From contig CAKKRJ010000010.1 in NCBI GenBank assembly GCA_919902775.1, positions 124,001 to 188,000 of the forward strand: a DNA stretch of 64,000 nucleotides, given 5' to 3'. The notes beneath the pieces were generated by a model, which saw nothing but the letters and a program-made list of their open reading frames with translations, was not told the DNA's origin and did not search any database. Made by a program: the position numbers and the translations under genes. Shown piece by piece: positions 31,734-34,102 of the stretch. Each line of letters begins with the position of its first letter. Position 1 is the stretch's first letter. Origin of the DNA: Burkholderiaceae bacterium (GTDB lineage: Bacteria > Pseudomonadota > Gammaproteobacteria > Burkholderiales > Burkholderiaceae_C).

Positions 31734-33668
31734 TCAAATCAGCTGGATGCTGCCGGGCACGATTCTGGCCCCATAGTCACGCACCATGGCCTGCACCAGG
31801 GGGTCGCTTTGGATCAACTCCTGCGCGGCCTCCATCTTGGCAGCAGCCAGCACTGCCAGTCGCTTGGCCGGGCTGTCGGTGACCGGCCCGATTTCAATGT
31901 GCAACTGGACAGCGCCATGCCCTGCGGCCAGCAACGCAGCCTGCAAACGCTCACGGCTTGCCGCGTGGTTCAGCGTCTCGCGCTCCACGCGCAACTGCCA
32001 TCGGTCAGCATCCCGGGCCAGCAACTGGGACTGCAAAGCCAGTTCGCGCACCAAGGCGGTGATGGCCTCTTGCGCCATCAAGCCCTGAACGGCAGCCAGC
32101 CAGACATCGCCTTCGGGTGTGGCTTGCACCGCCACCGGGGCCGTCTGCCGCGGCACATCCACCCGTGCAGAAGGCTCGGAGGCCTCACGCACAGGCAGGG
32201 AGCGCAAGCCCGCTGAAGCGGGCGGGGATTCGGTCACGGGCGGCCTGTGCGACGGCGGCACGGCATCGCTGTAGTTGGTCGTGTCAGGCCAATCTTCCCA
32301 AGGGGGCGGCTCGGCTGGCGACCCACTTGGCGGTTCAATTTTCGGCAACGGTGCGGCCGGCTCAGGGGGTGACGACGCCAGCATCGTCGAGGCAGCTTCG
32401 GCAGACCCGGACTCGGATTCGGACGGAGTCGCAAGGCGCGCAGACGGTGCAAAAGTGGGTACGGGGGGTGCTGGAGGCAGCGATGGCGCCGCAGCCTGCA
32501 CGGAGGCAGGCGCTTCAGTTACCGGTGGGGGCTGAATTCGCGGGCTTTTTTTTTCAGCCGATCCCGCCTGGGGTTTGAAAGCCAGCAAGCGCAGCAACAC
32601 CATGGTCAGGGCCGCGTATTCGTCCGGGGCCAGACCCAGCTCGCTGCGCCCATGCAAGCACAGGCTGTACAGCAGCTGGGTTTCTTCGGCAGGCATGGCC
32701 TGGGCCAGGTCGGCCAGCCCTTGGGTATCGGGGTCGTCGCCATCTTGCGCCATGCTGGGCACCATCTGCATCACCGCCATGCGCTGCAGCAGCATGGCCA
32801 TGTCTTCCAACGTGGCCGCAGCCGACACGCCTTGCAAGCGCAAGGCATTGACCTGCGACACCACGGTGGCGCCATCGCCGTCGGTCAGAGCGCGGATGAG
32901 TTGCAACACATGGCTGCGGTCCACACTGCCCAGCATCTGGCGCACCCCGGCTTCTTGCACCAGGCCGTTGCCAAAGGCGATCGCCTGATCGGTCAGGCTC
33001 AGCGCATCGCGCATGGAGCCCCGGGCCGCACGGGCCAACAAGCGCAACGCCAAAGGTTCGGCCGGCAGTTGTTCGGCGGCCAGCACTTGGGTCAGGTGTT
33101 CAAACACCGTCTCCGGGGCCATGGGCCGCAAATTGAATTGCAGGCAACGCGACAGCACGGTGACAGGCACTTTTTGTGGATCGGTCGTGGCCAGCACGAA
33201 CTTCAAATATTCCGGGGGCTCTTCCAGCGTCTTCAACATCGCATTGAATGCGGTGTTGGTCAACATGTGCACCTCATCGATCATGAAGACCTTGAAGCGC
33301 CCCTGCACCGGCTTGTACACCGCCTGCTCCAGCAAGCTCTGCACCTCGTCCACACCCCGGTTGGATGCGGCATCGAGTTCGGTGTAATCGACAAAACGTC
33401 CGGCGTCGATGTCACGACAGGCCTGGCATACGCCACACGGCTCGGCGGTGATGCCGCCCTGCCCGTCGGCACCCTGGCAATTGAGCGACTTGGCCAAAAT
33501 GCGCGACACCGTGGTCTTGCCCACACCCCGCGTTCCCGTGAACAGGTAAGCGTGGTGCAAGCGCTGCTGCACCAATGCATTGGTCAAAGCCTGCACCACG
33601 TGTTCTTGCCCCACCATTTCAGTGAAATTGCGGGGGCGGTATTTGCGCGCGAGAACGAGGTAAGACAT
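31734..33668 (-). CDS. dnaX: DNA polymerase III subunit gamma/tau
   Basis: [68 protein letters not shown] at 33668. Confidence 0.97.
32546..32554 (-). other. A9 slippery run in dnaX (predicted frameshift/transcriptional slippage site)
   Basis: - strand GCT GAA AAA AAA AGC CCG; alternative frames reach TGA (32515-32517) or TAA (32519-32521) immediately downstream. Confidence 0.65.
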
Positions 33669-33801: not shown

Positions 33802-33899
33802 GAGCCTGACGGGCCCTCCCGCATGGTGAAGCGGCCAACCGGGTCAGGTGGGGAACCAAGCAGCCCTAACTGTGGAGCCAGTGCCGGGGTCAGGGCTCG
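33802..33899 (+). ncRNA. ffs: Signal recognition particle RNA, 4.5S type
   Basis: GAGCCTGACGGGCCCTCCCGC...CAACCGGGTCAGGTGGGGAACCAAGCAGCCCTAAC...GTGCCGGGGTCAGGGCTC; SRP motif GGTCAGGT-NN-GGAA-NN-AAGCAGCC; TACAAT -10-like box at 33795-33800. Confidence 0.88.
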
Positions 33900-34102
33900 T
33901 CAACTTCCCTTACAGGCACATGATCTTGGGCGCACCATTTGCGTCAGCCGCCCAGATGCCCAACCCCTGCGGTTTTCTGAAGATGCGCGAATGGCATTGC
34001 GCCATCATTGGATGCGGGCAACTCCAGCGTCCGGTCAACAGCATCCCCATTCATGACGCACCTCAATGCCGCATCCTGATGGATCGGCTCAAAGTGGGGG
34101 TT

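Follow-up and report, generated by a model that had tools for sequence, protein, structure and literature searches.

In this study, we report that the dnaX gene of a Limnohabitans genome carries a run of nine adenines (A9) just past the end of the clamp-loader core, and that the run is conserved, with stops in both alternative frames, across the group of Limnohabitans, Comamonas and Acidovorax. The run is almost certainly a real and strongly selected recoding site, and it is probably a selected transcriptional-slippage site of the Thermus type, which would yield a gamma-like protein beside tau. It is from sequence comparison that we infer the occurrence, direction and rate of slippage, and the making and use of gamma. 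The retention of A9 and of both-frame stops in many proteobacteria, some of them easy to grow, argues strongly for a short form maintained by selection, and the importance of the gamma form is a long-running argument in replication biology. To our knowledge, polymerase slippage as a source of gamma has so far been a Thermus story; most likely, Thermus-type dnaX slippage extends to a large new clade that includes Limnohabitans, Comamonas and Acidovorax.

The A9 run of dnaX and its predicted products

The window, i.e. the whole 64,000-nucleotide stretch of DNA that was analysed, belongs to a genome assigned to Limnohabitans (Comamonadaceae), the nearest named relatives by DnaX being Limnohabitans. 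Its dnaX is one open frame for tau and requires no frame change, as read from the ORF and its translation; the start was taken at 33668, which is conserved, the mechanical ORF beginning at 33824 (Table 1). The best solved relative of the protein was E. coli tau (E = 2e-119). Pfam matches were found at residues 20-183 (PF13177), 188-235 (PF22608) and 237-363 (PF12169), and residues 1-377 aligned to residues 1-372 of the E. coli gamma core construct (1jr3_A). Downstream of dnaX lie a ybaB/ebfC-like gene and then a recR-like gene, both read from ORF translations. A small SRP RNA gene (Rfam RF00169) is located at 33808-33900 on the plus strand, divergent from dnaX.

Table 1 Features of the dnaX region in the window, and loci carrying a late A9 run
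Feature	Position in window	Strand	Basis
dnaX CDS, tau form, 644 aa	33668-31734	minus	sequence and translation; Pfam clamp-loader domains
Clamp-loader core region, domains I-III, residues 1-363	32580..33668	minus	Pfam
Putative A9 slippage run, frame xAA AAA AAA Axx	32546..32554	minus	sequence; conservation in relatives
TAA closing the loss-of-one-A (or gain-of-two) frame	32519-32521	minus	sequence
TGA closing the gain-of-one-A or -1 ribosomal shift frame	32515-32517	minus	sequence
Inverted repeat around the run, GGCTGAA (32553-32559) and TTCAGCC (32530-32536)	32530..32559	minus	sequence
tau domain V (polymerase-binding), missing from the predicted short form	31752..32129	minus	PF12170, residues 514-639
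Late-A9 loci: L207, L250, L255, L256, L258, L261, L263, L266, L273			

The run lies in the context GCT GAA AAA AAA AGC CCG and encodes E372 K373 K374 S375 after an alanine; the 18-mer around it occupies positions 156541-156558 of the contig (window 32541-32558). The original prediction had described a gamma/tau recoding site at the boundary between the core and the linker. The run, its frame and all coordinates given for it were exact to the base by sequence and translation, and the placement agreed with the Pfam domains: codons 372-375 follow the end of domain III (PF12169, residue 363), precede PF12170 and stand at 58% of the coding sequence. Runs of nine A or T numbered only eight in the 3.49 Mb genome, which holds no longer ones, and the genome's run frequency predicts about 0.002 nine-A runs on the coding strand of a gene of dnaX length. 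The occurrence of A9 in dnaX is beyond chance.

A second A9 of the same genome is found near the start of ftsY, in the motif MFSFFKKK (locus L185, G000:C5:91853-93860), and the same motif holds an A9 in one congener (G052). When the ftsY run was used as a control for codon choice, a single match was obtained in 80 congeners, but this control carries little weight, because the pattern required a non-G base at its end and so failed to match even the ftsY of the window's own genome.

Both alternative frames of dnaX halt soon after the run, at the stops that had been claimed. When one A is lost, translation would add AREFSPHR and stop after 8 codons, for a predicted product of 382 aa; with two A's gained it would reach the same TAA, for a predicted 383 aa; and with one A gained, or after a -1 ribosomal shift, it would reach TGA after 10 codons, for a predicted 384 aa. 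From the domain positions and the alignment to 1jr3, a product ending just past the run would keep the full clamp-loader core without the polymerase-binding part. In the favoured mechanism, RNA polymerase would slip on A9 in a share of transcripts to give mRNAs with eight, ten or eleven A's, and ribosomes would read these normally into the nearby stop. The resulting gamma-like protein would comprise domains I-III and a tail of 8-10 residues (382-384 aa), and the unslipped A9 mRNA would give full tau (644 aa) with its linker and polymerase-binding domain.

Conservation of the run and of the flanking stops

Conservation of the run in related dnaX genes, which had been proposed as a check, was examined in two overlapping sets, both picked by protein similarity alone. 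An exact A9 in the same phase was present in 69 of 69 readable Limnohabitans dnaX genes having sequence at the site, and in 80 of 80 named Comamonadaceae genomes (Limnohabitans, Acidovorax, Comamonas, Delftia, Hydrogenophaga, Rhodoferax, Polaromonas, Ramlibacter, Curvibacter, Caenimonas and others). A family census used a pattern on the core-end motif that was blind to the run, and found 103 places in 102 of 301 genomes. These rows, together with loci read further, gave about 81 A9, one A10, one A8, five A_AAA_AAG and 14 without a run, one of the 103 rows being read too short to class. The distance of the run from the core shifts from about 6 to 22 codons as the linker varies, yet the run stays intact. 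The A8 gene (L199, genome G155) reads GAA AAA AAA CCG at the same place and is the sole A8 seen in the clade.

A collection of 126 distinct sequences, chosen for a run of nine or more, held A9 in 125 cases and A10 in one (L233), in which A_AAA_AAG occurs incidentally at the run's end. A homopolymer inside a coding region might be a contingency (phase-variation) tract whose length varies in the DNA. This is vanishingly unlikely here, since the run did not vary in length among close relatives and, in the genes that were read, the tau frame continues intact across it, the frame of the A10 gene fitting ten A's.

Codon choice at the run was examined in the same 126 sequences. The preceding codon was GAA in 112 and CAA in 14, never GAG or CAG, and the following codon was ACT, AGC, AGT, ACA, ACG or ACC, never a TCN serine codon, even though TCN is commoner than AGY elsewhere in these genes (2747 vs 1621). 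Interruption of the run by synonymous AAG codons in close relatives had been named as evidence that would count against a recoding site; AAG was found in none of the 126, whereas it makes up 54% of their other lysine codons. Other KK pairs were only 3 across all 126 proteins. All Glu/Gln and Ser/Thr exchanges at the ends of the run retain the A's. Judged by these codons, selection is acting on the nucleotides of the run and not on the residues; the contrast is partly circular, the 126 having been picked for the run, but the genus and named sets were not so picked and have the same pattern. The flanks of the run, at 32543-32558 in the window, are constrained as well. GCT made up 73 of the 111 alanine codons before the run but 15% of those elsewhere, and ACT made up 44 of the 59 threonine codons after it but 8% of those elsewhere; stops do not explain either bias.

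Few parts of dnaX are as poorly conserved as the linker in which the site lies. Stops in the alternative frames were nevertheless close to the run in most of the 126 sequences, which are related and not independent, so that the following contrasts are descriptive and not probabilities. Control positions were taken from the same linkers. A stop was reached within 3 codons of the loss-of-A frame in 71% of sequences (controls, 7%) and within 10 codons of the gain-of-A frame in 97% (controls, 30%); both frames stopped within 10 codons in 90.5%, against 7.0% at control positions and 6.4% in codon shuffles. The clade-wide pattern indicates that stops in both non-zero frames are under selection. With a run uninterrupted by AAG and both-frame stops that are selected across the clade, the core claim, a gamma/tau recoding site placed where the clamp-loader core ends, was supported. 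It is highly improbable that there is no recoding and that the run merely encodes a conserved E/Q-K-K-S/T motif, the A's being incidental: the EKKS or QKKT residues are indeed conserved, but synonymous AAG, GAG/CAG and TCN codons are never used, residues change only where the A's survive, and the both-frame stops exceed the controls more than tenfold.

The nearest stop was mostly in the loss-of-A frame, after one codon in 54 of the 126 sequences and after two in 27, and a stop within one codon in the gain-of-A or -1 frame was seen in only 0.8%. The commonest form outside Limnohabitans is GAA AAA AAA ACT CTG A, in which losing one A gives CTC TGA; a short protein ending in EKKL is predicted for many relatives. 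The lineage of the window, with its closest stops 8 and 10 codons away, is looser than most relatives.

Transcriptional slippage and ribosomal frameshifting as proposed mechanisms

The original prediction had not decided between mechanisms. Of the two, transcriptional slippage agrees better with the comparative data than does -1 ribosomal frameshifting: in most sequences the first stop is met in the loss-of-A frame, and this frame cannot be entered by a -1 ribosomal shift. In addition, the two outermost A's of A9 fall outside any in-frame A_AAA_AAA heptamer, and a ribosomal site would therefore not need them.

Programmed -1 frameshifting on the A_AAA_AAA within the run, as in E. coli dnaX, could also make a gamma-like form. 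The heptamer is in frame, nearly all relatives have a -1 stop within 10 codons as given above, two nested genera carry an E. coli-like site, and the Limnohabitans genomes checked show only tRNA-Lys(UUU), which is the E. coli condition. This explanation is unlikely, as it does not account for nine rather than seven A's, for the lack of the plain A_AAA_AAG in the A9 group, or for the nearer, selected stop in the other frame, and neither an SD element nor a stem-loop appears to be conserved.

In E. coli, the -1 ribosomal shift works best with A_AAA_AAG and stimulators (PMC5009743). The A_AAA_AAG heptamer was absent from the window, which reads A_AAA_AAA_A, and from every exact-A9 relative. Downstream structure across the clade was at control level (-17.7 vs -17.5 kcal/mol), and no credible Rfam match was obtained at the A9 site; a downstream stem-loop or pseudoknot was rejected on these grounds. 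SD-likeness upstream of the run was weak, with a mean of -3.6 in the A9 clade against -2.4 in controls. The immediate -1 stop of E. coli was not seen in the window, where that stop is 10 codons away. The 7-bp inverted repeat noted around the run is present as described in the window, but it is not conserved: arms of at least 7 bp were found in 5.8% of Limnohabitans sequences against 3.3% of shuffles, and in 3.5% against 3.3% in others. It was rejected as a frameshift stimulator, not being above shuffles across relatives.

Some features of the window count against the slippage reading. Its own SD-likeness (-6.3) is stronger than the clade mean, its closest stops are less tight than in most relatives, and its A_AAA_AAA might also serve as a -1 slippery heptamer, on which ribosomal slippage could add to the product. 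A combination of both mechanisms, with polymerase slippage (loss and gain of A) and ribosomal -1 shifts on the A9 message, would fit a run that is a substrate for both and stops that lie in both frames. It is less likely still than frameshifting by itself, given that no ribosomal stimulator appears to be conserved and that two mechanisms would be needed where one fits the pattern.

Under the favoured reading of transcriptional slippage, the mix of products would depend on the direction of slippage. In E. coli reporters, A runs slipped less than T runs, and loss of A was undetected on the A runs tested (PMC6260861); the same paper cites in vitro work on A11 in which the E. coli polymerase made mostly deletions. 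The stops of the clade favour the loss-of-A (or gain-of-two) frame, in contrast with the reporter result. That frame can be entered in either of two ways, by losing one A or by gaining two. An earlier report of such a dnaX site in beta-proteobacteria was not found in the open-access literature, most subscription journals being outside the scope of the search.

Other candidate recoding sites in Burkholderiales and known dnaX systems

In two genera of the same family (g31 and g100; loci L226-L230), A_AAA_AAG replaces A9, as TCA, GGA or CCA followed by AAA AAG. An SD-like GGGAG, GGGAGG or AGGAG, or a G-run, ends 15 nt upstream in every sequence read; the SD spacing of E. coli dnaX, about 10 nt, is shorter. 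SD energies were -6.8 to -10.6 and the -1 stop follows after 1-3 codons, the stop in the other (+1) frame being unconstrained at 7-40 codons. No credible Rfam match was found in these genera. Within the A9 clade, these genera thus appear to have a nested site for ribosomal frameshifting that resembles that of E. coli. On a DnaX-core tree, built by a quick, short search over at most 360 columns, sequences with A9 and those with A_AAA_AAG together made up one branch with a support of 95; the A_AAA_AAG genera were nested inside it, and same-family rows without any run fell outside.

In a second family of the same order (f8), 8 of 30 loci read carry A9 in the same phase but 103-142 codons past the core, and genome G524 has one in dnaX 128 codons after the core, also in the same phase. 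These late runs (Table 1) mostly read CAA AAA AAA ACT GA. In 9 of 9 a stop follows after a single codon of the gain-of-A frame and after 2-11 codons of the loss-of-A frame, and SD-likeness is unremarkable. The f8 site may have arisen independently, or it may be an old site common to both families that was displaced as the linker grew. We lean slightly towards a history in which one family slips toward A loss and swapped, once or twice, to ribosomal frameshifting in two nested genera, and in which a second Burkholderiales family has a similar A9 about 100 codons further on with the stops reversed, the short protein being kept while the level of recoding changes. These close relatives offer a natural comparison of slippage, ribosomal frameshifting and no site.

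The presence of two lysine tRNAs has been suggested as the reason Thermus uses polymerase slippage (PMC5009743). In a pattern search allowing one mismatch, by which an unusual tRNA could be missed, the Limnohabitans genomes checked, including that of the window, had only tRNA-Lys(UUU), and three other A9 genera also had CUU; one of the A_AAA_AAG genera had UUU and CUU, the other UUU only. In this sample A9 and A_AAA_AAG each occur with one or with two lysine tRNAs, which argues against an explanation by tRNA set.

Thermus dnaX is described as making gamma by slippage on an A9 with stops in both non-zero frames (PMC5009743; PMC1088944; Larsen et al. 2000, as cited in these). The window dnaX resembles that of Thermus thermophilus in having A9 in one tau frame, stops near in both other frames and a short form, here predicted, that keeps the core. 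The two differ in that the Thermus run is placed at seven-eighths of the coding sequence (PMC1088944) and not at 58%, in that Thermus is an unrelated bacterium with two lysine tRNAs where the Limnohabitans genomes checked have one, and in that the nearest stop in Limnohabitans and other Comamonadaceae is usually in the loss-of-A frame. Thermus-type slippage is further marked by mRNAs with A runs of mixed length and by gamma and tau made at about 1:1. Slippage has been shown for Thermus, whereas for Limnohabitans we infer it from the genomes.

With E. coli dnaX the likeness lies in the same gene, the same two products (predicted here) and a site in the linker after domain III; the A_AAA_AAG, SD-like element, stem-loop and -1 stop one codon on that mark the E. 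coli site do not appear as conserved parts in the A9 clade. Split dnaX genes of the Chlorobi type have A7-A10 runs that are attributed mainly to transcriptional realignment (Antonov et al. 2013, PMC3711429). In such genes tau is made only when a slip joins two ORFs, whereas tau of the window would be the unslipped product of one ORF. Caulobacter likewise obtains gamma from dnaX, by proteolysis of tau as cited in PMC5009743, but does so without a run or alternative-frame stops.
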